Of a DNA stretch of 64,000 nucleotides, positions 4,716-49,126 are shown in pieces (position 1 is the first letter of the stretch; each line of letters opens with the position of its first letter). The translations under genes were made by a program, and so were the position numbers. This DNA comes from Tetraselmis striata (Eukaryota > Chlorophyta > Chlorodendrophyceae > Chlorodendrales > Chlorodendraceae), in assembly GCA_006384855.1 (NCBI GenBank), contig VCJN01001639.1, positions 119,347 through 183,346 of the forward strand, written 5' to 3'. The notes beneath the pieces are model-generated. The model worked only from the letters and a program-made list of their open reading frames with translations, was not told the origin of the DNA and ran no database searches.

Positions 4716-5478
4716 GCCACATTCCCCGATGGCAGCTGTCGCGAATATTGTAATTCAATCATTCTTCGGCAAACCGCTGCCTGCCCCCGCCCTCCCCCTC
4801 GCGAATATTTATGTAACGTGAGCACTCTTTGGCAAAACATGGCAGCCAAACCGCCCATCTGATGACCTTTGATCGGACGGCTGGCAGGCCCGTTCAGCAG
4901 TACTAGCTATAATGTACACAAATTCCCCAGTGTTACCAAATACATACGGCTGCGATTTGCGCTCCCATGTACTAATAGTCGTAGTTATCCACAGGACGAC
5001 TAGGGTTCGTACTAGATACCCGGTACCGGCGTAATAAATATATCGCGTACTACCCGGTACTACACGGACAACCTTGTACCTTGTACGTCAGTGCCATCTA
5101 CGCTTCACCGGGCTGGTACGACTACCAGAATGATGACAAAAAGGATTTATCGCCCGCCGGCAATAACGCCGGATGTACTCGCACGTAACTGGATGGACGT
5201 GCCGCCACCAGCAGCAGCCTTCACGGATAAATAATAGTCGCTAGTAGTAGTGCTTCGTCACCTGTATGTCACATCTGAATCTCACAGTGCAAGCACGAAA
5301 GAGCCGAGGTGAAAAGATGGCTAGCCACGCCAACGAGACTGTCTCGACTCAGAGTAAGTCCATGCAAAAATACATGCAGTGGCAGCTAATAAGCTAGCCA
5401 AGCAAGTCGACAAGATCGACTTACACAAAAACAAATGACGGTGTTGAGCAGAATGCCAACCTGTGCCTCTCAATGTAA
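4716..5478. other. No gene recognised; 5' flank of Gypsy element
   Basis: AT-rich spacer. It contains a TAGTCGCTA motif at 5235-5243 and a short ATG-initiated reading frame near 5318 that stops after about 26 codons. The 12-mer agtccatgcaaa occurs at 5357, 5508 and 5533. No LTR matching the 3' side of the Gypsy element was found here. Confidence 0.5.
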
Positions 5479-8400: not shown

Positions 8401-9723
8401 GTGTTGCAGATATTATATCGCAAAGGCGCTGACAATGAGGCTGATGCTCTCTCTCGCCGCCCTGACTTGCATTATGCATTGACTGAATATGAAAACCAGC
8501 TGGTCGAAGCTGACCTTGAACAAATGCAGGACTATTTGTCAGCAATGTCCGCCTTGCAGATTGACAGCAAGCTAATAAACAAGATCAAAGCTGCCTACAT
8601 CACTGATGTTGCCTACAGCCATGGACGCACCCCCAACGGTGTGCGACAAGATGAGACTGATGGTCTCTACTACATGGCAGATAAGGTCTGTATACCCAAT
8701 GATTCTGAACTGAGAAAACTCATCATTGAGGAGTATCATGTTGGTAATGGACACCCCAACCATACCCGCACTCTTGCCAACACACTGCGTATGTTTTGGT
8801 GGCCACGCATGAATACCACAGTCAAGCATTACTGCAAACACTGTGATACTTGCGTTAGAATCAAAGCAGCTACCACCAAGCCTCATGGTTCTTTATTTCC
8901 CTTGCCAAAGGCAACCAAGCCTTGGGAGATAATCTCAATGGATTTCATAACCAACTTACCTGAGGTGGATGGCTATGATGCTATTGCTACGTTTGTTGAT
9001 ACATTCACCAAACAGTCACATTTTGTGCCATGCAATATTAAGATTGATGCGACACAGCTGGCCAGATTATATTTGGACAATATTTACAGACACCATGGTC
9101 TCAGCAGATGTATCATCTCTGACAGAGATCCCAGGTTCACTTCAGTGTTCTGGAAATCATTGTTTACAGCTCTGCAAACTAAGCTAAATATTTCCAGCGC
9201 TTATCACCCGCAAACTGACGGTCAAACTGAACGCACCCACAGAACTATTGAGCAAATATTACGTGCGTTTGTTCACAAGCAACATGACTCTTGGTTAAGT
9301 CATTTGGCTCTTGCTGAATTTTCTTACAACAATTCAGTCCATTCAGCAACACATTATGCCCCTTTTGAGGCAATTTATGGCATGATGCCACTGACACCAC
9401 CTGATCTGATTGCTACTGCCAACCAAGATGCACGCAACACAGTTGCAAATATTCAAGATATTCACATGTTGATTACTGAGCAACTGAAGCTTGCTGATGA
9501 ATATCAAAAGGTCTATGCCGACCGCAAAACCAGCCCTGTTGAGTTCGCAGAAGGAGACAAAGTCTGGCTCTCAACGGAGCACTTGCTCATACGCAACCAG
9601 CCGGCGCGCAAGTTCCGACAGCGCTACATCGGCCCCTACCCGGTCACAGCCAAGATCTCCAGCCAGGCGTATCGTCTGCGCCTGCCACCAACGTTCGACT
9701 GCCACAATGTGTTTCATGCTTGA
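5479..9723 (+). CDS. Gypsy pol polyprotein with N-terminal methyltransferase-like domain
   Basis: Residue numbers count from codon 5479 (TTG); the first ATG is at 5608. Residues about 144-285 form a domain with D164 in a T-F-D-A-C-A motif and N197-P-V-Y, resembling the Dam-like domain of DIRS elements. The aspartic protease has D362-S-G-A-T. The RT palm has Y718-L-D-D. RNase H starts at D869. The integrase has an HHCC zinc motif and a D,D,E core ending in the T-D-G-Q-T-E-R motif. The ORF ends at TGA 9721 after the usual N-V-F-H motif. There is no chromodomain in this frame. Reading frame and catalytic residues of protease, RT and integrase look intact. Confidence 0.9.
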   Translation: MRQSTLTCRRVHAKKLHVSPCKHACTAKLPAQPLHEIEDTDVDMVEHCAPAALNPSDSQPEHEAHGCSCAHSHLVADIEDETGCRENVDKNVKDKKTHAKLHAKLTIMQKRSRVRRMRTKNSNQKNDTEIDKYAKPNACPTDPVVFDQAEFKRLNYAYGPVTFDACASAYDAVYSDYCSAEKPFLQQNIKGKTVFINPVYDDTALPILQHFEMQRQESPFDTRGIIVMPRWSSQLGQSWKPLLSKYKKIHSYPPGTYLFHTPSSATDTEPMGPTEWYVDVYLADYTVEERSAQAINDVVTTEELKTMLAEQQGKEYKPKATKSHQSRMMTEKCFVTSKSDHDLLLLHPTCAEFNITPSVLVDSGATLNFASTKYVKENKIPTTPLQNKARVILADGRMVLASQKITLELNINNYTIPIDFTVTPLQHNFNLVLGMQFLKQHNPHVDWESGLMTFSRGLKVQCQTEPRQANVRMVHANAMAREIAKHDPDTVYFCAIVKQYNATKESDELDIDDEINTIDTDQSAAYTAQIRDLLRKHKPICSPLDNLPQLRPGLDHEIPLVPDAQVPAGKMYRLSPAELEELRTQLNSFLEKQFIQESFSPYAAPVLFARKANGGLRMCIDYRQLNKYTKKVEFPVPPADALLDMLSGATVYSALDLALGYHQLRINPPDVPKTAFRTVYGQFEWLVMPFGLTSAPSSFQRLMTSILQPHKHTFILVYLDDVLIFSNSLEEHLQHLDTALTMLESNDIRLRLQKCWFAKNELEYLGHMVSHAGLRPSPNKIKAVQDWPRPKNVQNVQQYLGFCNFYRRYVRNYSAIAAPLYALTRKDNIFDWTVECQAAFVKLKQALCQSPVLASPVTGKDAEFVVATDASKYALGAVLLQANADGHLHPCSYYAKTLQAAQTNYPTYDQELLGVVCALKEWRCYLEGSRRITVITDHATFRHLPTQEGLGRRHALWLHEISPYMAVNPQTNEPVLQILYRKGADNEADALSRRPDLHYALTEYENQLVEADLEQMQDYLSAMSALQIDSKLINKIKAAYITDVAYSHGRTPNGVRQDETDGLYYMADKVCIPNDSELRKLIIEEYHVGNGHPNHTRTLANTLRMFWWPRMNTTVKHYCKHCDTCVRIKAATTKPHGSLFPLPKATKPWEIISMDFITNLPEVDGYDAIATFVDTFTKQSHFVPCNIKIDATQLARLYLDNIYRHHGLSRCIISDRDPRFTSVFWKSLFTALQTKLNISSAYHPQTDGQTERTHRTIEQILRAFVHKQHDSWLSHLALAEFSYNNSVHSATHYAPFEAIYGMMPLTPPDLIATANQDARNTVANIQDIHMLITEQLKLADEYQKVYADRKTSPVEFAEGDKVWLSTEHLLIRNQPARKFRQRYIGPYPVTAKISSQAYRLRLPPTFDCHNVFHA

Positions 9724-21276: not shown

Positions 21277-22205
21277 AACACAGCAAGCCGCCCAAAAGCG
21301 GCCCGCATCCTATACGAGGCGGGATGGGTAGTGAGTGATGCGCGCACGGTTCAGTCCGGGCCACGCGTGCACGAGTGTGCGAGGGTGATCCCCGGACGTG
21401 CTGTGCAGCTTCGGCAACGGGATGGCGGACGAACCTTCGCCGTCGGATGATGAGGTAGCAAGCACGCTCTCGATGAGCCAGCACACCAAGCTCATGACCC
21501 CGAGGAGATATTGTGAGAAAAGCCTCCTGGTGAGCCCGGGTGGTGCACCGAATGCCCGCGATGAGAGGACACCCCGATCCGCGGCCAGGCATGCGACACC
21601 GCGCGCAGTGCAACGCACCCCCTTGCTCACCTCACCCAGTGTGCCAATGACCATGCGCCCGTGCACTCCGGCATGTCCATGATGTCTCGGAGGGGCCCTT
21701 CTGTCCCGGCTTCGTGTTGTGCCACGCCGCATCCAGCACTGTCAGGCCCCTTTGTATGTCGTCCGACAGGGAGCGCTCGACCGACGATCCGCAGCCGTGA
21801 TGGCCTGGGGCGCACCGCGCAATGTACGTGACCCCGTATCGCATAGTCTTGCTGAGCTCAAGCAGTGTGGGCTTCAAGCTCGACCGGGGATTAGAGTTCC
21901 CGGTCAGGACGTTGAACGCCGGGAGGGAGAGCTCTGCGTCCGGCACCGGGTCCTTGAGTTCATGCATGGGTACGTTGTTGCCGAGAGGCACTGCCAGCGG
22001 GAAAAAGTGATCCACCTCCCGGCGTATAGCGATGCCCTGTTCGTGAACACATTGGTCGCACAAGGTGTCACTTAGCGACAGCGTCGTGTTGTACACGCCA
22101 GTGAGCGTCTCCATGTGCCGGGAGGTACATGAGCGCGTCGCCATAAAGGTCGACAATGACGGGGTTGTGCTCTGTCGAGGGCATGATGATATGGCTCCCA
22201 ATAAC
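21277..22205 (-). repeat. Dispersed repeat R1, long copy, partly coding
   Basis: On the minus strand this block carries ORFs of about 140 and 189 aa. Its part from 21277 to about 21690 matches 33088-33476 in inverted orientation, including the end 'ggcggcttgctgtgttg'. The 189-aa ORF has a C-x2-C motif and a V-D-H-F-F-P-L segment but no family I recognise. Because it recurs, I treat it as a fragment of an unclassified transposable element and not a host gene. The longer copy here suggests 33.1 kb is 5'-truncated. Confidence 0.7.
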
Positions 22206-22301
22206 TCTCGGGGCCATGCATGGGCTAGGCATAAAGAAGTACCCGGCAGCGACTCACCTTCCGCAGCTCAAGCAAAGTCGACAGTCCGCGTGGTGGGGGA
22301 A

Positions 22302-22338
22302 CCCTAAAATCCCTTAAAATCCCTAAACCCTAAAACCC
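22302..22338. repeat. Short interstitial telomere-like repeat
   Basis: Reads as CCCTAAAAT, CCCTTAAAAT, CCCTAAA, CCCTAAAA, CCC. Both the plant-type CCCTAAA and the Chlamydomonas-type CCCTAAAA units occur. It abuts the left inverted arm of the 22345-23385 element. Confidence 0.6.
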
Positions 22339-22344
22339 ACGAGT

Positions 22345-23385
22345 GGCCCGAACTCCCGAACCACTCCGAATTGAAATGAGTTCGGCACAATACCTACCTA
22401 CCAAAGCGTGATCCCACCACCCGCCGCCGCCTGGGTGGGCCCGACGACAGTCCTCGGCCCTCGGAACCGCGGGCCCTTCCTCCGCCTCCACCCCCGGCTG
22501 GGGATGGGGGCGGGGATCGTGCACGGGGGGCGCCTTGGTAGCCTTGGCCCCGCCCGTGCTGCCACTGCCGCGGAGGAGCAGTGTGAGTTGGACACCGGCG
22601 TCTTACGTCGTTGCTGGTCCGGTCAAGTCCCCGTTCGTTGTTCTCTGAGCACCCTCTTCCTTCCTATCCCGTCGGCGCCTCCACATCACATTCGGCCTAG
22701 TGCCGCTATTGGAGTGGCCCGGGATGTTGTGCTGGGAAGGGAGTTCTACGTTTGGCGGAAGGGGACGAGACTGAGCTGGCGGCGGATATGGCGCTGGGCG
22801 GAACAAAGCGCGCTGGACACCGGCGTCTTACATCGTTGCTGGCCCGGTCGGCTCTGCATTCCCTACTCGTTGAGCACTTTCTCCCTTCCTGTCCTGTTGG
22901 CGCCTCCACATCACATTCGGCTCAGCGCCGCTATTGGAGTGACCCGGGATGTTGTGCTGGGGAAGGCGTTCTACGTGTGGCGGAAAAGGACGCGACCGAG
23001 CTGGCGGCGCATCTGGCGTTGGGTGGCCTGCGTCTGTTGCACGCCCGTGGCGCCCCGTTATGGGTTGGACCCCCCACTTCCGCTCCTTGCTGCGAGACCT
23101 CTACTTCGAAGCTCCTTTCCTGTCGGCGCCTTCACATTACATTCGGCCTAGAGCCGCTACTGGAGTGGCCCGGGATTGTGTGCTGGGGAGAGCGTCCCTA
23201 CTGCGTGGAGCGGCGGCTGGCTGGTGGCGATGCCTGGTCGGTGGCTACCATGGCGGTTCCCGCCTCTGTTGGCCCGTAGCTGGATTTCCTTCTGGATTTC
23301 TGTGTGGATTTCTTGAATGTCTAGCACATGTAATCATGGTTGTGCCGAACTCATTTCAACTCGGAATGGCTCGGGAGTTGGGGCC
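22345..23385. mobile_element. Element with 46-bp terminal inverted repeats enclosing tandem units
   Basis: The arms at 22345-22390 and 23340-23385 are inverted copies with about 4 mismatches in 46 bp; both end in 'gagttcggcacaa' (inward). Between them, three units of about 228 bp follow each other; 'catcacattcggc' or its variant recurs near 22683, 22910 and 23134. In one frame each unit reads as a similar peptide with W-R-K and S-W-R-R motifs, so the tandem may once have been coding. No target-site duplication could be found, and no known superfamily is assigned. Confidence 0.6.
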
Positions 23386-27086: not shown

Positions 27087-27590
27087 TGTTGGACCCAGGG
27101 TACCCCGGTACCCTGAATCCGCTTTTTCTCTCTGTGAAATCCGCATTTTTCCAGTGAACAGCTGGCTGCCGTACCAGTGCCTAATTTGGACCTTGTGGCA
27201 GAAGTACGGCACCCAGTGGTTACCAAAGCATGGCACCTAGGCATCTTTGCCAGTTGGCCTCCTTAGACGGAGAGGTGTCCGTCCTAATTGACATCTAGCC
27301 GGCTGGTATAAATTGCCAACCTCGGCTCCTTGTAATTCAGTCAACTGCTTTTCCAGAAATATTCCGACTCACACTTTCTCTCTCGTGACAGTGCCACTCA
27401 GCCATCACCACGGCGACAACGACTACCTATCATCCATCGCCCACGGCTCATAGCAGCCCTTTGCCTTTCCAGCTTGCACCTTGCTTGCTGGCACTCAACG
27501 TGATTCGACGCATGCACGCCGACTCTCGCCGACTCTCCCCCCATCAGTGACAGTGCCACTCAGCCATCACTTCGACAATCCCCTCCGACA
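27087..27590 (+). repeat. 5' LTR of the Copia element
   Basis: Directly repeated at 31414-31924 with scattered substitutions and small indels. It begins TGTTGGACCC and ends CCTCCGACA. Confidence 0.93.
27307..27313 (+). promoter_or_regulatory. TATA-like box in the 5' LTR
   Basis: TATAAAT lies about 220 bp into the LTR. The same site in the 3' LTR is changed (gtgtaac), consistent with age or decay of that copy. Confidence 0.5.
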
Positions 27591-27782
27591 GGTTACGGGC
27601 CCTCTCCTTTGGTTCGACGTCTTGCCCCGTGCTCGACGCCTGCCAGAGGCTTCAACCTGCGTGTATCTCGACCCTCGGCGGCTTTCGACGATCGACGGCG
27701 ACGTGCGACGAAACTTTTCTTCCCACCCGCCCACCCCTACAATTATATACATCTTCCAGGATAAGTGCGCCATCCTTCCACC

Positions 27783-29189
27783 ATGTCTACCAGCATCACC
27801 ACTGGCATGATGAACACCCCTCTGCCTAATCTAGTTGGGAGGAGTGCGGTCAAGAAGGACCCTGGCAGCGACCCACCGCCGCCTGACTTTAGTGACAGTG
27901 ATACCAGTTCTGAAGGCGCTTTCAGCCCACACGGTGCGTCAGACAGTGACTCCAGTGACATCCAGTGGATCAAGCCGTCTGCAGTGAAGCCGACACTCGA
28001 CCTCGCAACGGTCCCCGTGTGGGACCAGAACATCTCTACGCGTGATAATGCTCAGGCCATCAAGATCTCCCTCGGCAGCGCCGGCTACCTGGACACCACC
28101 AACGGCAAAGGCACCCACCAAGAGTAGCTCATTCTTCTGGCAGCCATGCGCCACGCGACAGCGAACTATCCCATGGCACTGGCCATCGTCGACAGCATCA
28201 GCATGGACTTCAGGAAGTGTGGATATGCGGCCTGGACGGCCCTATTTACTGAACTCCAGGGGTCTGCCATAGAGGAGCGCATGCGCTTGGAGGAAGAAAT
28301 CACAGCAGGCCATCTCCCGAATGAGCCGGTCCAGGTGTACGTTCGCCGCTGCCGGAACCTCTGGCATTTGTTGAGCAAGGTACATGGTCAGTGGACATCC
28401 GAGTACGTGGCCATCAACTACCTCATCCCAGGACTTCACCCAGCAAACGATCACATTGTCGACGCCACCATCTCGGCAACCAATGTCAACAAAAGGCTGG
28501 CAACCATCATAAGTGCCGGGCAGAACATGGAGGCGCGCACGTGTCAGCGTCAGCAGCGCGCCCGTTCCCGCACGCCAACCCTCAATTCCTGTGACCCCAA
28601 GGACCAACTATATGCCACCAGACCCAACATCGTCTGCAGCAGGTGTGACCGTCCAGGCCATGCTCAACAACAGTGTTTGGCCAGGCGCCATGCCAACGGC
28701 CTGCGTCTCCTGGGTGACACCGCCCCACCCAGCACCATGCACAACCCTAGCTATGGTAACTGTCAGCGCGCGCCTGCGGAGCGTCACGTCAACGCCAACT
28801 ATACCCACAACATGCGCAGCGACTACAACCATCAAAACAGGCCCCAGCGGCTGCAATATTGGCCCACCCAGAGCGACAACGACGACATGCAGCGCCATCA
28901 CCAGCCATTCGGCTTCGTCTCCCCGGCCGGACATCACCACCACGGACATCACCCGGCCAACAACGACTCCGACCAGCAGCCGACAGGAGGCCAGGAGGCC
29001 TACCCGGTAATGGGTGTGTCCTCGTTGGCACCACACCACAGCGGCCTGCCCGTCATGCTCACCTGCACCACCACCGCTCCAGGAGGGGCAGCCACCGGAG
29101 CGCAGGAGGGGGAGAGCGAGGACGACGAAGACGATGAATTATATGAATCCTGGCACGTCCCCTACTCCACCTCTGACGACAACCTCTAG
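27783..29189 (+). CDS. Copia gag, interrupted by one in-frame TAG
   Basis: ATG 27783 has the good context ccaccATG. The N-terminus is Ser/Asp-rich. The capsid-like region follows, with a Y-V-R-R-C-R-N segment, then a canonical zinc knuckle C-S-R-C-x4-H-x4-C near 28640-28680. The C-terminus is His/Gln-rich then acidic. A single TAG at 28125-28127 breaks the frame, with coding clearly continuing in the same frame behind it (next ATG 28146). This is a disabling mutation or a readthrough site. The 3' end overlaps the next ORF by 56 nt from its first ATG. Confidence 0.8.
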
Positions 29190-30126
29190 TTCCCGTTCTC
29201 ACACCCATGGCGTGCCCGCCACTTCCGCTCTCAACCCATTCTCACCCCAATTCAACCTCTATGCCTCGCTTCACCCGCATTCCCAACCTCAGCGGCACTG
29301 GCGGCCCACGACGTTCATACGGGGCAGGGCGCCCTACGTGGAGACCTGCCACCGCCGCTCCCGATACTCACCGCTGCCCCACTCCTCCATATGCCAAACT
29401 CTTCCTTTGGTAATCGAGCATCTCTTCTCGCCCTGCCATGGCCCACCGGCATTTGAGGTGGAGGCTGTGGTGGAATACGGCTTCTCCATCCTCGCGTTCA
29501 TCGGCGCCGACCCATCAACGGAGGCTCGCACTATGTGGCCACATCACCTACAGGTCATAAGGAACAAGTACCCGGGCCGCCTGCCTCCATCAGCATTTCA
29601 GGACTGTCATGACGGGACCCCCATGAACATCAACGACATCACCATCAGGGAGCTAGAGCGGCTGCGCCCGTTCACCCTCGTCGTGTCAAGCACACCGTGT
29701 CAACCATGGTCACGCACGGGCTCACGCCTTGACTGGCAGGACCATCGCCCTCGTGCCTTCGCCTCCGTCATCGGTTTCGCCCGCTTCTACCTGTCTTCTC
29801 AGCCCACACCAGTGCGCTATATTGTGCAGAATTTTCCAGACGCGCTGGCCTTACCTGAAGTACTCTCCTCACTTGGCGCATGCAACATCGTGCGCGCGGC
29901 GTCCTGCGGCTTGGCGGCTCACCGCGACACCCTTATGTGGACCATTATCGCTCAACCGCAAGACATCCGGAACTGCGGCAACAACGTCGCCGCCATCAGG
30001 CTCGCCGACCCGGGCCCCTTCAGTGGCTGCCGCATCTACAACCCGGCTACCGGGCGCAAGACCCCGCCTCTCTCTATGCCGGCCTTTCAGTTATCCAACA
30101 CTGACTACCTTATGGACGCGTTTTAA
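29134..30126 (+). CDS. C5 cytosine-methyltransferase-like protein in the Copia element
   Basis: A 330-aa ORF in the +1 frame relative to gag; the frame is open from 29014 and the first ATG is 29134. Motif I is visible as E-H-L-F-S-x-C-x-G, followed by A-F-I-G-A-D-P in the motif II position. The catalytic motif IV is S-T-P-C-Q-P-W-S with C189. The motif VI position reads V-Q-N-F, Gln232 replacing the Glu of the usual E-N-V. The motif VIII position reads G-L-A-A-H-R-D. Motif order and spacing fit the Dnmt/Dcm superfamily. The missing Glu suggests weak or no catalysis. It occupies the place where protease and integrase normally lie. An alternative is a captured host or phage-type gene. Confidence 0.8.
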   Translation: MNYMNPGTSPTPPLTTTSSSRSHTHGVPATSALNPFSPQFNLYASLHPHSQPQRHWRPTTFIRGRAPYVETCHRRSRYSPLPHSSICQTLPLVIEHLFSPCHGPPAFEVEAVVEYGFSILAFIGADPSTEARTMWPHHLQVIRNKYPGRLPPSAFQDCHDGTPMNINDITIRELERLRPFTLVVSSTPCQPWSRTGSRLDWQDHRPRAFASVIGFARFYLSSQPTPVRYIVQNFPDALALPEVLSSLGACNIVRAASCGLAAHRDTLMWTIIAQPQDIRNCGNNVAAIRLADPGPFSGCRIYNPATGRKTPPLSMPAFQLSNTDYLMDAF

Positions 30127-30345
30127 CCCTCGGGCCAGCAGGAGGGGCCCCACGCACCGCCACCCATGCTGCCATCGGCGGCGCTTGCTTCGGGGCAAGA
30201 GGGGCCCCCACCTCCACATCACAACGGGCAGCACCCTCCGCACCCTTAGGAGGGGGACGCCACGGCACTGTCGGCTTCTCACACCAGCAAACAGGGACAA
30301 CTGACTTCCCATTACGTCGACCTCAGCGACTACCACCCAACACTG

Positions 30346-31406
30346 GTGGCATCCGCGATCGCGGCGGTTGTGCGCCCCCGCTCAGCGCGGCTGACAGGCC
30401 TCGCCCTATCAGCACCCATTGTCCGCGTGTCCACGGCGCCGCGCAACTATCAGGAGGATATCTCCAGCACTCGCCCCGATGACTGGAAGAAGTCGGTGAA
30501 CCATGAGATCAAGTCTATCACCACGATGGCACTTGTCGCCTGGGTCAACGTCCCTGAGTTTCGACGCGACAACGAGTCAGCGGTCATCCAACGGACGGCG
30601 TGGGTCTTCGCGGCGCAGCACGAGGATGGCAACATCATCAAGCGCGAGACCGGCGTGATCGTTCGCGGCAATCTACTCACCACCGGCGAGACCTATGCCT
30701 ATGACTACCTCCCCCTCGGCTGTGGCCGTAAGGACCGGGCTTGGCATCCCGTTGAGGCACTCTACGACTTGCCGCACGCATCCAAGGCATGGTTTCTGTG
30801 CTTTTCTTCCTTTCTACATGACTTCGGCTTCATCGGCTCAAAGCCGGGCGGCGTGAACCATCTTCATCGGGAAACCTGCATCATTGACATTCTGACTACC
30901 TTTCACATGACGGAGAGCAAGCCTCGCCGCCTGCTCTGCACGCTGAATACCAACTTTCATAACATTGCAGTCACCCACCGTGCGCAGGTTCGGAGGCAGC
31001 GTGGCCATGTCTACTGCCGCAGCGGAGTTCGTGGCGCTCTGCGTGGTCTGCACATGTCGGGCGGTTATTCGCGTTCTTCTGCGCCAAGCTCAGCCACCCC
31101 ATTGCTGCGCCGGTGCAAGTATGCGGGGACAACCGCGCATGCATCGTTCACGTGCAACATGGTATGATTACAGGCGCGCAACGCCACATTGACCTCCGGT
31201 TTCAGTATGCGGTCCAACTCTACCAAGACGGCATCATCTACATGCACTACACGCCTACCCCGGCCCACCTGGCCGACTTCTTCGCTAAAGCGCTGCCGCT
31301 GACTACCTTTCTTCATTTCCGCGCTGTCCTGATGGGGTCATCCGAGGAGCCTTGCGTTGCGCCCCTGCCGCCATCAGTCCTGCGCCCGCGGGATTCCACA
31401 GGATGA
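30346..31406 (+). pseudogene. Decayed Copia RT/RNase H
   Basis: The start (about 30450-30720) matches the Copia RT N-terminus, with W-K-K-S-V-N-H-E and I-V-R-G-N-L motifs. It jumps to A-L-Y-D-L-P-H-A-S-K-A-W, then loses the palm: no Y-V-D-D is present. RNase H remains as S-T-A-A-A-E-F-V-A-L in a second frame and G-D-N-R-A-C-I, H-I-D-L-R-F and A-D-F-F-A-K in a third (31113-31406). Internal deletions and at least two frame changes make it non-functional. Confidence 0.85.
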
Positions 31407-31413
31407 GGAGGGG

Positions 31414-31924
31414 TGTTGGACCCAGGGTACCCCGGTACCCTAAATCCGCTTTTTCTCTCGGTGAAATCCGCATTTTTCAGTGAACAACTGACTGCCGTAC
31501 CAGTGCCTAATTTGGACCTTGTGGCAGAAGTACGGCACCCAGTTGTTACCAAAGCATGGCACCTAGGCATCTTTGCCAGTTGGCCTTCTTAGACGGAGAG
31601 GTGTCCTTCCTGATTGACACCTAGCCGGCTGGTGTAACTTGCCAGCCTCGGTTCCTTGTAATTCAGTCAACTGCTTTTCCAGAAATATTCCGACTCACAC
31701 TTTCTCTCTCGCTCGTGACGGTGCCACTCAGCCATGATCACCACGGCGACAACGACTACCTTTCGTCCATCGCTCACGGCTCTTAGCAACCCTTTGCCTT
31801 CCCAGGTTGCATCTCGCTTGCTGGCACTCGACGTGATTCGACGCATGCACGCCGACTCTCGCCGACTCTCCTTCCATCAGTGACAGTGCCACTCAGCCAT
31901 CACTTCGACAATCTCCCTCCGACA
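31414..31924 (+). repeat. 3' LTR of the Copia element
   Basis: Copy of the 5' LTR with single-base changes and small indels (for example an extra ctcg after ctctctcg). It ends CCTCCGACA before flank gatttgtta. Confidence 0.93.
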
Positions 31925-32204: not shown

Positions 32205-32495
32205 GTGTTAGCTGCAAAATTTAAGAAATGCACGCAGAAATCCAGAAGAAAATCCAGCTACGGGCCACAAGAGGCGGGAACCGCCATGACAGCCACCGAT
32301 CAGGCATCGCCACCAGCCAGCCGCCGCTCCACGCAGTAAGGACGCTCTCCCCAGTACACAATCCCGGGCCACTCCAATAGCGGCACTAGGCCGAATGTGA
32401 TGTGAAGGCGCCGACAGGAAAGGGGCTTCGAAGTAGAGGTCTCGCAGCAAGGAGCGGAAGTGGGGGGGTCCAACCCAGGACGGGGCGCCACGGCT
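32205..32495 (-). repeat. Dispersed copy of the third 228-bp unit and flank
   Basis: In reverse complement this matches about 23050-23335: the stretch with 'tggagtggcccgggattgtg', the 'gctggatttccttctggattt' region with small changes, and the end near acatgtaatcat. It shows that the unit inside the 22345-23385 element is a mobile sequence present elsewhere. Confidence 0.8.
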
Positions 32496-32589
32496 GATGT
32501 AATTAATCTTTATCCAGTTACGGAAAGCCCTGGGTAGGCGACGCTCCGTTATAGTCCCGGCGTGTCCTAGGTTTACCCGATTGATGCAT

Positions 32590-32843
32590 TAAAGTAAAGT
32601 AAAGTTCGCTCCGGGACATCGGCCGAAGCCGCCCCAGCACTGCTTGACCTCGTGCGCAAACTGCAGTCGTAGGTCTGGCATAGCCCGTAGACCATTGCCT
32701 CATTCGAACCCTGAAGGGCTAATGCATCAACCGGGTAAACCCGGGACACGCCGAGCGGATATTGCCGAAATACATCGGCCAGGAGTCGAACCCGGGTCTC
32801 TCGCATACGAGACGAACGCTCTACCGAGCGGACAAGGGATGTA
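32590..32843 (-). mobile_element. tRNA-derived SINE copy
   Basis: On the minus strand the head (from 32842) has an A-box-like gctcggtagagcg. An anticodon arm with loop ctCGTat (Thr, CGT) follows. A T-arm with B box gggttcgactcc completes the head. The D-loop is four nucleotides short and the acceptor stem has two mismatches, so it is not a functional tRNA. A body of about 170 bp follows, ending in an actttacttta tail. Behind the tail an inverted piece of the same body follows (32555-32590), showing a second insertion in opposite orientation. Confidence 0.8.
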
Positions 32844-32851
32844 CTGTCGCT

Positions 32852-33063
32852 AGCCTTCGGGGTTCGAAAAATGAGGCAATTTTCTATGGACGTTTTCTAT
32901 TGCCTTTTCGGGGGTTTCCTCATCGCCTTTTGCAGCTAGCTCAGCATGTAACAAGGCAATGGTCTACGGGCTATGCCAGACTGCAGTTGGCGCAAGTGGT
33001 CACGTGCTGGGGCGGCCTCGGCCGATGTCCCGCCCGGGGCGAGCTTTATTTTACTTTTTATAC
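32852..33063 (+). mobile_element. SINE copy, 3' part, interrupted
   Basis: Plus-strand body sequence (ccttcggggttcg, gaggcaat) is interrupted by about 65 bp at 32881-32945, then resumes with 'caatggtctacgggctatgc' and ends in an attttacttttta tail. It lacks the tRNA-like head. Confidence 0.7.
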
Positions 33064-33087
33064 CAGTAGCGACTACTGTACCATGCA

Positions 33088-33476
33088 TGTCGGAGTACAC
33101 GGGCAGGGTCTTCGGCACAGTGGGTGAGGTGAGCAAGGGGGTGCACCGCACAGTGCGTAGTATCGCATGCTTGGCTGCTGATCGGGGTGCCCTCTCATCG
33201 CGGGGCACTCGGTGCATCACCCGGGCCCACCAGGAGGCCTTGCTCGCAAGAGACTTCCTCGGGGTCCTGAGCTTGGTGGCCGCTCGAGAGCACGCTAGCT
33301 GCCTCATCAGACGGCGCAGATTCGTCTGCCATCCCGTTGCTGAAGCTGCACAGCACGTCCGAGGATCACCCACACACACACGTGCACGCGTGGCCCGGAC
33401 TCTGAACCGCGTGCGCATCACTCATCCATCCCGCCTTATGCGGGATGCGGGCCGCTTTTAGGCGGCTTGCTGTGTT
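33088..33476 (+). repeat. Dispersed repeat R1, truncated copy
   Basis: Inverted relative to 21277-21690. The shared reading frame shows the motif G-E-V-S-K-G-V in both copies and a common end ggcggcttgctgtgttg. Confidence 0.8.
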
Positions 33477-42548: not shown

Positions 42549-43072
42549 TTTCTGAAGAGATCATGAGGCAGTGTGTTGGTAACCTCACAGGGGGGCGGTT
42601 ACATGGGTGTGTGGGAGAAGTCCTGCCACTGAGTAACAGCGGTGTCTGTGAAGACGCCGCTGCACTCCCCGGAGCGGGTGGGCGGGAGATACTGAAAATT
42701 CTGGCTGTTGTGAGGAACAGCCCCGGCTGCCCCCCTGGTTACTAACAAACGCACTGCGTTTCTAGACAGCCCTGGGGGCAGCCCCAGGTCTGCTGGCAGT
42801 TGGGTCCCCTCACGGATCCAACTACCAATTACTAATCCTTGTAACTACATCTTTTTCTAATAATTCTTGGTCTTGAGCTTCTGTTGCCTCATCCTTCATC
42901 TCTGCAGAAAACCGGTGTGGCTCTGGCCCACAGGCCACCACCAAACATGCCTTTCTGAAGAGATCATGAGGCAGTGTGTTGGTAACCTCACAGGGGGGCG
43001 GTTACATGGGTGTGTGGGAGAAGTCCTGCCACTGAGTAACAGCGGTGTCTGTGAAGACGCCGCTGCACTCCC
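42549..43072 (-). repeat. B2, A2 and B1 repeats of the DIRS element
   Basis: B copies at 42549-42669 and 42952-43072 start tttctgaagag on the plus strand and end gctgcactccc. The A copy between them (42687-42951) matches 49127-49391. B1 and A2 are contiguous, while A2 and B2 are separated by 17 bp (42670-42686). Confidence 0.95.
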
Positions 43073-43093
43073 ATTGGTCCAGTGAAGAAATAG

Positions 43094-44365
43094 TTAGAGG
43101 GCGGCGATGAGCCGTAGAATCTCGGTGGCAGACGTCTTGAAGTAGGCGTCCAGTGCGTCCTGGCGGCACTCCCAGTGCCCGACGTGGGCGATGACCCGGG
43201 CGGACCTGTAGCGGTCCCAAAGCCATTGCGCGAGGGACTTGCGGCCAGAGTGGCTGCCGACACGGTCCAGGGGCGTCGTGCGGGTGGCTGGGTCGGGGAA
43301 GGCGCGCGCGTAGGCGGCCTTGAACGCTGAGTTGAAGCCCGAGTAAGGGGTGGTGTGAAAGGCCTGGGGTCCGATGCGGGAGGACTTGGGTGCGGCCAGC
43401 AGGCGGCTTCCCGAGGGTGGGCGGAACACGCGGAGGTAGTCCTCAAGCATGTCAACCGGGCGGACAGCCAGGCAAGGCACGTGGTCTGGGATGTAGGCGA
43501 AACACTCGTGACGGGCGTCAACGTTCTTGTCGACATCCACGCGCAGGCGGATGTAGCGGCAGCCCAGCTCCGCGTTGAAGAGCACGCGGACAGCGCTGAG
43601 GTCCGTGTAGGACACGGCGCCGGAGCTGGACACGCGGTAGTCGCAGGTGAGTGCCGCGGCGGCTGCGCGGCGGAGGCACCCGAGGTTAAGGAAGGTGATG
43701 CACAGGCGCTGGTGCCTGCCAAAGGCTGACGACAGGGGGAAGCCGCGATGAAGCATCGCGCGCAGGTCCGGGATCCGAAGAGGAAGTCGGCCCTTGGCTG
43801 GGCGCACGGTCCGGCGCTCCAGGATAGAGATGAGGGTGTTGATGCTCTCGTCCTTGCACGGGTTGAGCGTGGAGCGGCCCGCGAGGCGCAGGTGCGGGAG
43901 CTGGCGCCTGTGCCAGTCGGAGATGGCCGCCAGCCGGCCGGCAATGGTGGAAGGGGCGAGCGAGCGGTCGCTCATGCAGTGGTAGATGTAGCCCCGCAGG
44001 AGACCTAGAGTGGCGGGGAGGGGGGTGGCACCCCTCGCGGTGCAGAAGGAGCAGTAGTCGCGCAGGCTGCTGCGGTAGGTGTCGGTGGTAGATGCGCGGA
44101 GCCGAAGATCCTCGAGGCGGTCGGCGCCCATAAGCAGGCGGCGCCACTCGGGGAGGTGGGCGGTAGGCACCGCTGGGGCAGCGCACGAGGGACATGTGTA
44201 AAGTTCAGGCATCCCTGTGTCCGGGCGTCCTGCGCACCGGGCGCACAAAGCCGTCCTGCAGCTGGCGCAGGCGTAGAAGGTCCCTGGGGCCATCGCCTGA
44301 TAGGCGCGGCATCGCGATGGTGGCTTGGGCAGAGAGGCTGTCAATGGGGCCAGCGGGGGGAACAT
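43094..44365 (-). CDS. DIRS tyrosine recombinase
   Basis: A 423-aa ORF from ATG 44365 to TAA 43094. The N-terminus has C-x2-C pairs (C-A-S-C, C-A-R-C, C-P-S-C), probably a small zinc-binding module. The core-binding region follows, then the catalytic domain: R in G-C-L-R-R, H-x-x-R in H-S-G-R-K-S, a G-H-W motif and the nucleophile Y in D-A-Y-F. The enzyme would integrate the circular DNA copy. It overlaps the end of pol by 161 nt in another frame, as is common in this group. Confidence 0.93.
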   Translation of the reverse strand: MFPPLAPLTASLPKPPSRCRAYQAMAPGTFYACASCRTALCARCAGRPDTGMPELYTCPSCAAPAVPTAHLPEWRRLLMGADRLEDLRLRASTTDTYRSSLRDYCSFCTARGATPLPATLGLLRGYIYHCMSDRSLAPSTIAGRLAAISDWHRRQLPHLRLAGRSTLNPCKDESINTLISILERRTVRPAKGRLPLRIPDLRAMLHRGFPLSSAFGRHQRLCITFLNLGCLRRAAAAALTCDYRVSSSGAVSYTDLSAVRVLFNAELGCRYIRLRVDVDKNVDARHECFAYIPDHVPCLAVRPVDMLEDYLRVFRPPSGSRLLAAPKSSRIGPQAFHTTPYSGFNSAFKAAYARAFPDPATRTTPLDRVGSHSGRKSLAQWLWDRYRSARVIAHVGHWECRQDALDAYFKTSATEILRLIAAL

Positions 44366-46988
44366 GGATCAGTACGACGCCCCAAGTGGTGGGGCCTCGG
44401 TACCCACGGCGCGAGGGGACGGGGTTGGTCCGGCTAGCATCTCTCCACTCAGGGGAGGTGAAGAGGGCGTGGCCGCGGCGGAAATATGCGATGACTTGCG
44501 CGCCGCCCGTGAGCCGCCACCACGGGGCCGCCGCCCAGACCGGGAGCACAAAGGTGCCCGCCGTGGTCGAGGGGGCAGTGGCGTAGCACGCCCAGAAGTG
44601 GCGGAGGACGTCGCGCATGGCGGCGAAAGGAGGGTTGCAGTAGACCCGGCGGCCAGCCCAGTCGTGGGCAAGGCAGCTGTCTATCGCTGACCAGAAGGCG
44701 GGGCAGAAAGAGTTGCGGCCGAGAGGGTCGGCGCAGGCGTCGACATCGAAGGGGCCGCAGGCGGCCTCCAGCGCGCGGAAGATGTCGCTGAGTAGGCGCC
44801 AGTCCTGGTCGTCGATTGCGCCCCGAAGCCGGGAGAGGGAGTCGGCGAGGGTGTTCTTCCGGCCCGGGATGTGACGGGCGATGAGTGCAATGTCGTAGCG
44901 CTCCAAGAGTTCGAGAAGCCACAGGAGCAGCTCGAGGGAGTCCGGGTGCGGGGATGCGCCCTTGTTGACCGCCCCTACCGAGGAGGTGTTGTCAAGGCGG
45001 AAGAGAACGCTGCTGCCGGCGAGGCGCGCGCCGATCTTTGCGATGGTCCAGGGGACCATGAAAAGCTCGCGGAGGTTCGCGGACGTGCTCCACTGCTGGA
45101 GCTGCTCCGGGTTGAAGGCGTAGTGGAGGCGGACGTCGCCCCACCAAACGCCTCCCGCCCAGCCCGAGGCGTCGGAAGTAACGACCTCAAACCCCGCCGA
45201 GCCGTCCAGAGGAAGCTGGGGGTCGCCAGGAAGGCGGGGGATCATGGCCTTGGACCAAAGACCGGGGAAGGCGGGGACGCGGCGATAGCTGCGCTCAAGG
45301 GGCTGGATGGGGTCAGAGGGGGAGGGTGTCATGCGCGACGCGCCCGCTGCCAGGGTGTCACGCCACCAGAGGAGGTCCGCACGAGCCGCAGGGTCCACGC
45401 TGCAGGGTTCGGCGGGATCCCAGCTGTCGATCGAGTTGGTCGAAGCGTCGCTGACGAGGCAGTCACGCGCGCGGTAGAGGCCGACCAGGTGTGCCTGTCC
45501 GGGCAGGACGACCGGACAAGTCCACTGGACTTTGCCGATGAAAGAGGCCAAAGCACCTCGGGCAGTTGTACCCGTGACGTCCACCTCGGTCAGGAGGGCA
45601 TCCGCGCGGGCCCTGAGCTTGCCGCAGCGGGCTGCTGAGACGGCGACAGTGCCCCGGACCGTGTCGATGAGGACGCCGACGAACTCGCAGCGAGTGGAGG
45701 GCCACTCGTTCTTGGCCAGTTTGACTGGAAGGCCGTACTTGTTCAGCGTGTTGACGCACGACAAGTACATCAAGCCATGCTGCCACAGAGACAAGGAGCT
45801 GTTGAACTTGAGGAGGAAATCATCCAGGTAAGTTCCCGCGACGCCGAAATTTGCGTACGAGGCCTCAGGGGACCCGGGTACGCAGAATTGGAGGCCCTCC
45901 CGCAGCAGGATGTCGCGGATGACATGAGCCCAGCGCTGCTGCAGAGCCGGGGCCTGGCGATTGCCGAAAGGGACGTAGCGGTAGCGGTAGTACTCCCCCG
46001 TGGCTGGGTGCTGGAAACCTTGGTAGTCGCAGTCCGAAGAGGCAGTGGGCCAGCAGAAGAAGGCGTCGGTGAGGTCAATCTTGCCGAGGGCGTCCCCCGG
46101 CTGCAGTGACTCAAGCACACCGTGGATATCGCTGAGCTGGCAGGAAACCCGGGCCAAACAGTCATTAACCCCGGATTGTTTGAAGTCCACGACGTTGCGG
46201 ACCTTGTACGTTGGTACAGTCTTGATGATGCACGCGATCGGGTTGACGATCCACGGAAGGTAGTGAAGGGGGCCTTCACAGAAGCCGAGCGCAATGATGC
46301 GGTCGAAGTCAACGCCGGCGGCGTTGTTGTTGTCGAAGCACGACTTGTAATTGTTTTTGCGGGAGCGCGGGGGGCGGCCCGTCCACAGGAGAGGGGCGCC
46401 CTCGAGAAGCTGCGCCTTCAGGTCCGATGGCACATGTGGGCTCATCAGCAGGGCCGCAGTGTTTACGCGGAGGCCGGGCGTGTAGACGCCGCGTATGCTG
46501 TCGTCGATTCCGGCCTGACCCCGGTACCATTCCGCCCAGTCAGCGGCGTGGCCGGGGGGAACTGTCCATGTCAGCGTGGGGGGCGCGCTGTCGCCGCGGC
46601 ACCCTAGCTCCAGGTAGCGGCGGTTCGCGGCCTCGCGTGCGCCGGAGGGTTTGAAGGAGCGCCGCACGATGCGGAGCCCGTCCAGAAAAGCCTGCAGCTC
46701 GGCTTCAGGCGCTCGGAGCGGAGCGGCCGTCAGACCGAGTCCGGCAGCCAATTGGGCGAGCATCAGCTTCTGGTAAGCTGTGCCGTCACTGGAATAGATG
46801 GGCCTGCAGTCAGCGCCGTCCAGGTCGGCGTAGGCTGCAGGGATGTGGACGCTCGCCGCCGCGCAGGTCCGGACGACCAGTAGGGCGTGGTCGATGCCAA
46901 ACTTGCGCAGCAGCAGAGCGGGTAGCGGTGAGCTGATGGGGGTAGAATCAGCGGGGCCCGAGCTCCACGGGCCCCACGTCCGCCCTTG
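44205..46988 (-). CDS. DIRS RT - RNase H - adenine-methyltransferase-like polyprotein
   Basis: The frame is open from 46988, directly behind the gag TGA and in the same frame; the first ATG is 46763. Counting from that Met: RT near residues 140-400 with the palm motif G-T-Y-L-D-D near 310; RNase H from about 527 with S-D-A-S-G-W; a Dam-like domain from about 669 with F-D-V-D-A-C-A and the catalytic-type C-N-P-P-F near 708. That C-terminal methyltransferase domain is a known feature of DIRS elements. All motifs look intact. Confidence 0.93.
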   Translation of the reverse strand, partial: QGRTWGPWSSGPADSTPISSPLPALLLRKFGIDHALLVVRTCAAASVHIPAAYADLDGADCRPIYSSDGTAYQKLMLAQLAAGLGLTAAPLRAPEAELQAFLDGLRIVRRSFKPSGAREAANRRYLELGCRGDSAPPTLTWTVPPGHAADWAEWYRGQAGIDDSIRGVYTPGLRVNTAALLMSPHVPSDLKAQLLEGAPLLWTGRPPRSRKNNYKSCFDNNNAAGVDFDRIIALGFCEGPLHYLPWIVNPIACIIKTVPTYKVRNVVDFKQSGVNDCLARVSCQLSDIHGVLESLQPGDALGKIDLTDAFFCWPTASSDCDYQGFQHPATGEYYRYRYVPFGNRQAPALQQRWAHVIRDILLREGLQFCVPGSPEASYANFGVAGTYLDDFLLKFNSSLSLWQHGLMYLSCVNTLNKYGLPVKLAKNEWPSTRCEFVGVLIDTVRGTVAVSAARCGKLRARADALLTEVDVTGTTARGALASFIGKVQWTCPVVLPGQAHLVGLYRARDCLVSDASTNSIDSWDPAEPCSVDPAARADLLWWRDTLAAGASRMTPSPSDPIQPLERSYRRVPAFPGLWSKAMIPRLPGDPQLPLDGSAGFEVVTSDASGWAGGVWWGDVRLHYAFNPEQLQQWSTSANLRELFMVPWTIAKIGARLAGSSVLFRLDNTSSVGAVNKGASPHPDSLELLLWLLELLERYDIALIARHIPGRKNTLADSLSRLRGAIDDQDWRLLSDIFRALEAACGPFDVDACADPLGRNSFCPAFWSAIDSCLAHDWAGRRVYCNPPFAAMRDVLRHFWACYATAPSTTAGTFVLPVWAAAPWWRLTGGAQVIAYFRRGHALFTSPEWRDASRTNPVPSRRGYRGPTTWGVVLIHVPPAGPIDSLSAQATIAMPRLSGDGPRDLLRLRQLQDGFVRPVRRTPGHRDA

Positions 46989-49049
46989 TCACTGGTCCGC
47001 GGTGGGACCCGCGGGGCATGGGGTGGCCAGCTTGCCAACCAGTGCGTGGGGGTGGCGGCACCTGGGGCAGGGTTGGGGAATCGGTTCTTCCGCCGGGTGC
47101 TGGCTTGTCTTGTGGTCGCCGAGGCAGTAGGCGCATGCCTTGGGGATCGACGGGGCCGGGTTCGGATTGTTGCGGCTTGGGGCATGCGGGTGTTGTGCAT
47201 GGGGGCGGCTCATGGTGCCGCGTAGCTCGTCCAACCAGCTGGTGTTGAGGTTGCCGCGCGCAGCGGAGATGAGTTGACGCTGGAGGTCGTCGTGCAGGTG
47301 CGGCGCTGCCCCCTTGTGGAGCAGTTCCAGTTGCTTGGCCTGCAGCTGCGGGAACCACTGGTCGAACAAGCACAGCTCGCGAGAGACCAGGAACGCGCGG
47401 TGGTACCGTTGCATGTACGCGTAGACCGAGGGCCAACTCAGGGCGGGCCCGCCGTCGCCGTACTCGCAGGCCTTTTGCACGGCATGCATGAAGCGGATGC
47501 GGCCAGAAACGCTAAGGATGGTCTCCACGCGCCGCTCGCCGTCGGGGGAATTGTCGAAAAGCGGGGAGTCGACAACGTGCAGCAGCTCCCAGTGCCAGGT
47601 GAGCATGTTGACGTGGTAGGCCTCCAAGTGGTGGCGGTCGGGGTAGGTTTGCGCCGAGTTGGCGGGGGGCTGGTAGCCTTGGAGCTCGTGCCACTGTCGG
47701 GCCTTGTCGTCAGTAGGCTTGGCAGCCAGGAGGTCGAGTTGCGCCCCGTACGCCCGGTTGGCGTAGTGCAGTGGAGAGCTGACGGCTCGGCCGCACGCGT
47801 CGAGGTGGTCTTTGGAGCCTTGGTAGGATTTAATGTAGGTGCGGCAGGCCGTGTTACCCCAGCGGTGGGCGGTCGCACCTGTGGACGAAAGCAGCTCCGC
47901 GGGAGTCATGTAGTCGCCTGGGGCTGCCTCGGGTGGAGGCTTCGGAGCCGCCGGTACGGCGCGAGGCGCGCCGGCCTGGGCTTGGGCCCGCAGGGTTCGG
48001 TTCTCTTTTACAACTTGGTCGACCTTGCCGGTAAGGGCCGCAACAGCTTCGACCAGTTTGTTGTAGTCGGCAGAGGTGAGGGTGAACGGAGCAGGCCGGG
48101 CCGCGGGCTCGTAGGCCGCGGGGGCGCGTGGGCGCGGGGCCGCGGCCCGGGCTGTAGCTGGCGCCGGTGTAGGAGTCCTCGTTGTCGGCGTTGCCAGCGG
48201 TAGCCTCGCGGGGGTAATCCCATCCGCGAGGCCACGCGCTGGCGCACGCTCGACTCGCGGGGTGTTAAGCCGGCGCGTGGACCTGGCCGTGATCGTGGTG
48301 GGTAGCAGGTCAGGTTGTACGGGTAGGCGGTAGTACTGCGGGACAGCCGGCTCGCCTGATTCAGTGACGGCGTCGGTGAGGATTAACCCCCATCGGTCGC
48401 GCACGCCGGAACAGCAGTCGCAGATCACTCTGGCGTCTGACGGGAGGTCAGCTCCCAGTGTCTCGGCGGCGCAGGCAGCAGCGATGCTGGCGGCACAAGT
48501 GGTGCAGTTGAACGTGTAGACGCCGTCGGCCTCCTCGCTGTCGGTGGGGTGGTCGTCGCTCGGCTGCCCGCATCCGAAACACACGTAGCTGTGTCCGTGG
48601 CCAGTGGCACCGTCGTCGTCGTGCGCCAGCAAAGGGAGTCCGTGGTTGCTGTGGCGCTTGCAGTAGGGGAGACCGTTACCGCTGCGGTACGGGCACCTCT
48701 GGCCGTTAACTTGGGCCGCCATACAGTGTGCGGCTGAGTCGTCCTCTAGGAGACGCAGAATGCGCCCCGTGTAGTCACAGAACGCGATGCGGTCGGCGTC
48801 CGTCAGTCGAGCGATAGTATCGCGGTGGGACAGTGCCCGCGAGAGAAGCACCAGGCTGGCCAGGTGGAACCAGTCTGTACGGTGGACGTCGGCGGTGTCG
48901 TGCAGCCAACTCGCCCATTGCACTGGGGTGAAGGTCGCGTACAGGTCGTGCGCATGTTCTTCATACAATTCGGCGAGTGTCTCGGTGGCGGCTCGTGCCG
49001 GCCCCTGGTGGCCTTCGTCGACTGCGGGGCCTCCCGAGCCAGACGCCAT
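46989..49049 (-). CDS. DIRS gag-like protein
   Basis: A 686-aa ORF from ATG 49049 to TGA 46989. Several Cys/His clusters lie in the N-terminal third (for example C-F-G-C-G, C-T-T-C and C-D-C-C). A Pro/Ala/Thr-rich linker, a coiled-coil-like K-V-D-Q-V-V-K-E-N segment and a larger helical domain with conserved Trp and Tyr residues follow. The C-terminus has C-A-Y-C-L-G-D-H-K and C-P-R-C motifs. Such ORFs are assigned to gag by position. The single TGA separates it from pol in the same frame. Confidence 0.85.
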   Translation of the reverse strand: MASGSGGPAVDEGHQGPARAATETLAELYEEHAHDLYATFTPVQWASWLHDTADVHRTDWFHLASLVLLSRALSHRDTIARLTDADRIAFCDYTGRILRLLEDDSAAHCMAAQVNGQRCPYRSGNGLPYCKRHSNHGLPLLAHDDDGATGHGHSYVCFGCGQPSDDHPTDSEEADGVYTFNCTTCAASIAAACAAETLGADLPSDARVICDCCSGVRDRWGLILTDAVTESGEPAVPQYYRLPVQPDLLPTTITARSTRRLNTPRVERAPARGLADGITPARLPLATPTTRTPTPAPATARAAAPRPRAPAAYEPAARPAPFTLTSADYNKLVEAVAALTGKVDQVVKENRTLRAQAQAGAPRAVPAAPKPPPEAAPGDYMTPAELLSSTGATAHRWGNTACRTYIKSYQGSKDHLDACGRAVSSPLHYANRAYGAQLDLLAAKPTDDKARQWHELQGYQPPANSAQTYPDRHHLEAYHVNMLTWHWELLHVVDSPLFDNSPDGERRVETILSVSGRIRFMHAVQKACEYGDGGPALSWPSVYAYMQRYHRAFLVSRELCLFDQWFPQLQAKQLELLHKGAAPHLHDDLQRQLISAARGNLNTSWLDELRGTMSRPHAQHPHAPSRNNPNPAPSIPKACAYCLGDHKTSQHPAEEPIPQPCPRCRHPHALVGKLATPCPAGPTADQ

Positions 49050-49126
49050 GTTGCAGGGCAGATGGTGCAGGCTCGTGTCGAGGGGCGAGGCGCAGTTTCA
49101 GGGTGACTTGTTACGCTGGTGGTTAC

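Follow-up and report, generated by a model that had tools for sequence, protein, structure and literature searches.

A DNMT3-like cytosine methyltransferase carried in frame by Copia retrotransposons of the chlorophyte alga Tetraselmis striata

Introduction

Cytosine methylation is a main weapon against transposons, and because it is used against them, transposons that themselves carry a methyltransferase present a paradox. Retroelements bearing a DNMT are known from a Gypsy element of Klebsormidium and from DIRS and LINE elements of Symbiodinium (PMC5890265). According to that paper, de novo CG methylation in yeast was obtained with the DNMT3 of a DIRS element; no activity in yeast was shown for the Klebsormidium Gypsy enzyme or the LINE enzyme, an outcome described as inconclusive; and the Copia elements of Symbiodinium are devoid of any DNMT. 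Its authors proposed methylation of the cDNA, and CG depletion was found in the LINE type only (PMC5890265). A paper from 2025 states in one sentence, citing this 2018 study, that DNMT3 members occur in LTR Copia and DIRS elements of streptophytes and dinoflagellates (PMC12344493). It says Copia where the earlier study describes the element of the streptophyte as Gypsy (PMC5890265), and the accessible portion of its text contains no chlorophyte Copia case (PMC12344493).

We analysed a stretch of 64,000 nucleotides from Tetraselmis striata (hereafter the window), in which a first-pass annotation had proposed that an ORF inside a Copia retrotransposon encodes a C5 cytosine methyltransferase, and had compared it with captures in dinoflagellates and a charophyte alga. 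That comparison stands in so far as DNMT-bearing retroelements are known; those described are, however, Gypsy, DIRS and LINE elements (PMC5890265), so that carriage by Copia in a chlorophyte is an extension of them and is what is new here. In the open-licence literature we found neither a chlorophyte case nor a described Copia clade with a DNMT. The question bears on how mobile elements borrow the silencing enzymes of cells.

The window element is a degenerate Copia copy

The element occupies positions 27087-31924 of the window, with all of its features on the forward strand. Pairwise comparison of its 5' LTR (27087..27590; TGTTGG...CCGACA, with ends as in loci L031-L034) and its 3' LTR (31414..31924) gave 474 identical positions among 503 aligned (94.2%), with 22 transitions and 7 transversions. 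A purine-rich tract lies immediately 5' of the 3' LTR, and the bases adjoining the element ends hold no clean target duplication, as expected of an older copy. Three-frame translation and by-eye comparison with the continuous frame of the truncated copy L031 identified a gag remnant (27783..29189) with the CCHC knuckle C-S-R-C-D-R-P-G-H-x4-C (about 28635-28676), which was sub-threshold in the Pfam scan (PF14787, E 0.014); an early stop interrupts this remnant, and a second stop ends its frame ahead of the methyltransferase.

The ORF that follows (29134-30126, 330 residues) is composite. Its first 89 residues (29134..29400) are a linker in a frame that differs from the coding frame of L031 and of the full-length relative L033, and the methyltransferase remnant takes up about residues 90-297 (29401..30021). 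The last ~33 residues belong to the integrase C-terminal region, brought adjacent by a deletion whose junction (30025..30126, RIYNPATG, running to the ORF end) is marked by a jump in the alignment to L033 from 4837 to 6490. The L033 sequence missing between those points codes for the C-terminal part of the methyltransferase, for the protease and for most of the integrase, and three further stretches in and after the RT are also absent. Alignment to L033 shows that what is left of pol (30346..31413) consists of RT pieces and the RNase H end, with the catalytic YVDD region of the RT deleted; a Pfam scan of 30346-31164 gave no match.

The original proposal was borne out as to the position of the domain between gag and pol remnants within matched LTRs and as to the assignment to Copia, the latter through the RVT_2 match (9.5e-45) of L033. 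The whole element aligns with L031 over 4845 positions at 92%, and L031 has the same anatomy and LTRs that are 99.8% identical, so the large deletions are a property of a non-autonomous lineage and not of the window copy alone. The window thus contains a degenerate copy, unable to move on its own, from a group of Copia LTR retrotransposons. Inverted repeats flank it on both sides (21353-23318 and 32219-33401; four pairs, 84-94%). Neither the Rfam scan nor the tRNA scan of the window gave a match, and a viral-contig scan gave one weak relative.

The window ORF matched PF00145 with 23.8 bits against a cut-off of 22 (E 3.6e-5, residues 163-214), and against solved structures it gave weak matches to DNMT2 (best E 0.0013). 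The remnant shows a motif I-like HLFSPCHGP, motif IV as STPCQPWS with its Cys nucleophile present (PCQ), and motif VIII as AAHRD; motif VI reads QNF instead of ENV, and the C-terminal motifs IX/X are deleted. Linker (ORF residues 1-89) and methyltransferase align as one piece in L001-L005, L001 being the window copy itself; in the other 25 of the 30 places L001-L030 the linker and the methyltransferase part give separate alignments. Thus the reading of a 330-residue C5-methyltransferase frame holds for about residues 90-297, where PF00145 scores above its cut-off, and fails for the linker at one end and the integrase piece at the other. We rejected the ORF as a working methyltransferase gene, given QNF for ENV, the C-terminal deletion, the off-frame linker and the broken gag frame; judged from its motifs, the remnant is very probably inactive.

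Counting its neighbours, three retroelements of the window (Copia, DIRS and Gypsy-type) may carry methyltransferase-like domains. A Gypsy-type ORF (5479-9720, forward strand, 1414 residues) has a Dam-like match below threshold (0.0053) that precedes the protease; FINPVY stands there instead of the usual NPPY-type motif. In a DIRS-like element on the reverse strand (42991-49097), RVT_1 (1e-8) and a Dam adenine methyltransferase (PF05869, 1.2e-11) share one ORF (44208-46988), and the neighbouring frame gave a phage-integrase N-terminal match that stayed below threshold (0.0086). Dam in DIRS elements is already known (PMC5890265).

Five full-length Copia families encode the domain in frame

With the window ORF as query, the 224-Mb assembly gave at least 128 matches (a lower bound; 121 of 568 candidates were scored), some of which, as in the other searches, are pieces of one copy, and many of which lie in open frames of 1000-2162 residues. 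A PF00145 profile search gave at least 123 (123 of 337 candidates scored), many in long frames that the window ORF query had missed, and the methyltransferase domain of a LINE, described below, gave 152, further Copia families among them. A light-harvesting search of the assembly (63 matches) returned pairs of contigs that scored the same or almost the same (such as C476/C1576 and C48/C2047), which suggests that both haplotypes are present and that copy counts may be partly doubled. Split matches and near-identical contig pairs together mean that the match counts do not equal numbers of independent insertions. The light-harvesting matches point to a photosynthetic host; the one such protein read resembles chlorophyll a-b binding proteins, with chains of 9vfj and 9jzr as best hits and 6kac next. 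The rubisco large subunit scored highest against 1gk8 of Chlamydomonas (1044 bits), followed by 8q04, 9hvm and 9chz (1012 or more) and by 4hhh, of a land plant, and others (990 or less), in agreement with a chlorophyte.

Also among the PF00145 genome matches were about ten places with intronless Dcm-type methyltransferases of 323-341 residues. The five that were read (L040, L042, L045, L046 and L047), of which two are partial, hardly differ from one another and show EQS instead of ENV, and two contigs with Dcm-type places (C776, C1230) also bear clustered Copia elements. A bacterial-looking methyltransferase in a 630-residue frame (L044, contig C2009) may be assembly contamination.

A complete DNMT3-like methyltransferase lies in frame between the gag zinc knuckle and the protease in five Copia families, designated B, D, E, F and G. 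The representatives read were L033 and L034 (B), L036, L037 and L038 (D), L039 (E), L050 (F) and L052 (G); pol is broken in L038, L037 ends early, and the others continue in a single frame. Stop-to-stop frames containing the domain run to 2130 (L033), 2162 (L034), 2299 (C663), 2483 (C2193), 2152 (C1860) and 2147 (C1430) residues. Their modules come in the order gag CCHC-type knuckle, methyltransferase, protease motif D-S/T-G-A, integrase, SH3, RVT_2 and, where covered, the RNase H end. Pfam recovered zinc knuckle, PF00145, protease barrel, pre-integrase, integrase, SH3 and RVT_2 in this order in L036, and in the other families some modules fell below the Pfam cut-offs, rve and the knuckle often just under. 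PF00145 itself matched 6 of 6 full domains at E up to 0.1 (best 3.7e-13; 40.3 bits in L033), and the whole frame of L052 (G) scored 18.7 bits against it, below the cut-off.

LTRs of six full-length copies drawn from the five families are 98.7-99.8% identical. Five of the six copies have 5-bp target duplications (GTTTC and ATGTC in B, ATGTA in E, GTTTG in G and CGGAG in F), the family D copy showing no clear one; with two non-autonomous copies included, seven out of eight young copies have such a duplication. With their LTR pairs, 5-bp duplications, gag-PR-INT-RT-RH order and RVT_2, the full-length families fit Ty1/Copia, and those that carry the domain have been recently active.

Physical linkage was assessed from same-strand methyltransferase matches within 4.5 kb upstream of RT rows. 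Among the matches listed, one was present for all 13 F-type RT rows (the 42% rows) and for 14 of 21 B-type rows (the first 21 of the same listing). Of the 31 rows assigned to G by a profile start of 2, some of which may belong to other families, 19 had one. The first-pass annotation had proposed, besides a phylogeny with retrotransposon-borne and host Dnmt proteins, a PF00145 search with the ORF and a search for further LTR pairs enclosing the domain, and had named as refutation either the lack of a significant match or an ORF found once and never within LTR-bounded copies. The PF00145 match of the window ORF is significant, and the six full-length copies show the domain to be multicopy within LTR pairs.

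The domain is conserved in full-length families and decayed in the truncated group

To describe the state of the domain we sampled 42 copies from the full-length families, 12 in longer loci and 30 fetched. The catalytic Cys is retained in all 42 and ENV in 41, and motif IV of L050 is unusual (GPCCEPW) with its Cys kept. By frame, 37 are full length without a stop, a single stop interrupts 4 more, and the remaining one is partial; the sample was picked from high-scoring matches, often in long frames, and may include allele pairs of one insertion, so these intact counts are inflated.

Pooled pairwise pN/pS was 0.28 in family B (19 copies), 0.26 in D (12 copies) and 0.29 in G (3 copies), values obtained from non-independent pairs and therefore to be read as contrasts, not as tests. 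The measure covers these three families, since E offered two copies with one difference and F a single copy, neither of which yields a ratio. In the truncated group, where 24 of 30 places were usable, the ratio rose to 0.71, against 0.29 for family B over the same region. We infer from these contrasts that the methyltransferase is selectively preserved in B, D and G, the families measured. It is a multicopy, intronless DNMT in frame with a retroelement ORF and with low pN/pS (B, D and G for selection), features by which DNMT-encoding retrotransposons are recognised. The central claim made for the window, capture of a C5-methyltransferase by Copia, is upheld by five families in which the in-frame domain is intact and the LTRs are almost identical, and by the low pN/pS of B, D and G.

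The truncated group differs at the catalytic positions as well. Gln replaces the Glu of ENV in 30 of 30 places (L001-L030), and the catalytic Cys is kept in 14 of them and lost in 16; a Pfam scan of the truncated L031 frame, with E allowed up to 0.1, came back empty. Two truncated copies nevertheless have LTRs that are 99.8% and 98.6% identical, with 5-bp duplications CACCT and GCATC.

A further Copia element, L051, has a frame of 1561 residues and no methyltransferase. Among the best 150 RVT_2 rows, 119 share the profile start of L051, many of them with a 1561-residue frame, L051 being the one read. The Copia type without the domain thus appears abundant, which means that the enzyme is not essential for Copia spread in this genome. 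RT rows of this type (frame 1561) are clustered on contigs C1776, C805, C440, C411, C1303 and C1230, with seven inside about 40 kb on C1776; a centromere-like arrangement is possible.

The domain is DNMT3-like and its acquisition appears old

A profile built from six retroelement domains and searched against solved structures matched M.HaeIII best (4e-9), then DNMT3A (7e-8) and the DNMT2-type structures 6fdf (8.5e-8), 4h0n (3.2e-7) and 1g55 (1.2e-6). The alignment with DNMT3A runs through motif I, motifs IV to VIII and a C-terminal GF-D-LS-R-LLG block in unrearranged order, the first and last of these scoring low alone; this C-terminal block is retained in the full-length families. A tree of 17 rows, from which DNMT1 and DNMT2 were left out, placed the retroelement domains in one clade (97/98), which fell on the side of DNMT3A and two phage enzymes, apart from three further methyltransferases encoded in the assembly (100/99). 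DNMT3A entered this tree in pieces, and a long branch and the odd compositions of the two phage rows were flagged. On this evidence we describe the domain as DNMT3-like, which falls short of a proven DNMT3.

The methyltransferase and pol trees concur in the groupings (B,F) and (G,(D,E)). Support for (B,F) in the methyltransferase tree is 88/90; all the other forks reach 96/94 or more. Domain identity is 27-51% across families and 27-34% between the two groups, similar to the 31-33% of pol. Since the two trees agree, the capture looks old, and one old acquisition inherited by descent would be the simplest reading. The family without the domain joins between the two groups in a pol tree without outgroup, where loss and later gain fit alike.

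The domain is also found in a LINE on contig C2687 (L054 681-6500, L053 1-4695), whose single frame of 3505 residues contains endonuclease, RVT_1, PCIF1_WW (4.4e-15), PF00145 and RNase H, with the methyltransferase downstream of the RT. This domain falls in the same clade as those of Copia, to which it is 27-34% identical, but the tree gives its branch no firm position relative to them; four places match it closely. Either an exchange between element classes or a double capture from one host gene would account for this.

Discussion

The reading that we favour, with a probability of about 0.6, is that the enzyme of the Copia relatives, held in the particle with RT and integrase, would methylate the element's own cDNA or fresh insertion and so aid its survival, the truncated group being moved in trans. 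The methyltransferase would be released or displayed within the virus-like particle and would methylate cytosines either in the cDNA just synthesised there or in the element once newly inserted. A copy so methylated might survive better, for example by resembling host DNA or by gaining a chromatin state compatible with later transcription. The truncated group keeps its LTRs and part of gag and would presumably be moved by the full-length elements; with no need of an enzyme of its own, its methyltransferase could have been left to decay.

Base composition does not bear on this in either direction. CpG observed/expected ratios were 0.82-0.98 in the families with the domain, 0.80 in L051 and 0.97 in the rest of the window, so that the families with the methyltransferase are not lower than L051 and show no element-specific trace of deamination. 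CpG depletion as a trace of self-methylation was dropped as a line of support because the depletion was not seen, and the values neither support nor exclude methylation of the elements.

Another way to view the enzyme is as one that acts on the host genome, where it could rewrite host methylation, interfere with silencing or limit copy number. Purifying selection is silent on the target, and host effects and rate limitation were both raised as possibilities for the earlier elements (PMC5890265); the placement of the domain inside the Copia polyprotein, between gag knuckle and protease, instead favours delivery in the particle, and we regard a host target as unlikely, if still deserving of weight. 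We think it very unlikely that the enzyme modifies the element's RNA, with effects on packaging, stability or escape from RNA sensing: DNMT2-type tRNA enzymes (6fdf, 4h0n, 1g55) are indeed among the profile matches, but the collinear match that extends to the C-terminal block is to DNMT3A, and the tree, albeit one that lacks DNMT2, puts the retroelement domains on the side of DNMT3A and the two phage enzymes. Slightly less credible again is retention of the domain for nucleic-acid binding or as a link between gag and pol, with catalysis irrelevant. Recent movement of truncated copies with a catalytically decayed remnant speaks for such a role, but binding alone would not require the Cys and ENV to be kept across families at 27-51% domain identity. 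Finally, although the window domain taken alone is barely above the Pfam cut-off, a chance motif or assembly artefact is ruled out for practical purposes by more than 100 matches on many contigs, by 5-bp duplications in seven of eight young copies and by PF00145 in 6 of 6 full domains.

Methylation by the element of its own copies remains our preferred account of the enzyme. A wider proposal, which we hold tentatively and at somewhat less than even odds, is that a C5-methyltransferase may be a selected and long-standing part of a whole chlorophyte Copia clade, that it may also have moved between Copia and LINE in this genome, and that methylation of an element's own copies may be a strategy shared among its retroelements and not the result of an isolated capture. 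The findings suggest that retroelements have acquired DNMTs, or passed them on to one another, at least once more than was known. Additionally, five divergent families with the domain, a family without it and a truncated group in which it has decayed, all in one genome, provide natural controls for the benefit of the enzyme to the element.

Compared with the catalytic domain of human DNMT3A (PDB 6w89, 5yx2), the domains described here have collinear motifs IV, VI and VIII, together with motif I and the C-terminal GF-D-LS-R-LLG block at low scores; they differ in an identity of about 18-27%, in their retroelement polyprotein context and in having no animal DNMT3 companion domain in Pfam scans. 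With SymbioDIRS-Dnmt3 and SymbioLINE-Dnmt they share many intronless copies, a DNMT tree congruent with the RT tree and the coexistence of elements without a DNMT, and as in Symbiodinium more than one class of retroelement carries a DNMT in one host (PMC5890265). The Symbiodinium carriers are DIRS and LINE elements, whereas here they include Copia, and the DNMT of SymbioLINE-Dnmt lies mostly in an ORF upstream of the RT (PMC5890265), whereas in the LINE found here (L053/L054) it is downstream of the RT in one frame. A further likeness is to KnitGypsy-Dnmt3 of Klebsormidium nitens, which as described in PMC5890265 is likewise an intronless DNMT3-type domain in the pol polyprotein of an LTR element of a green-lineage alga, with catalytic residues kept and purifying selection. 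That element is a Gypsy with DIRS-like repeats, from a streptophyte (PMC5890265). The elements of T. striata, in contrast, are Copia elements of a chlorophyte, with ordinary LTRs and 5-bp duplications, in which the domain sits between gag knuckle and protease in five divergent families.
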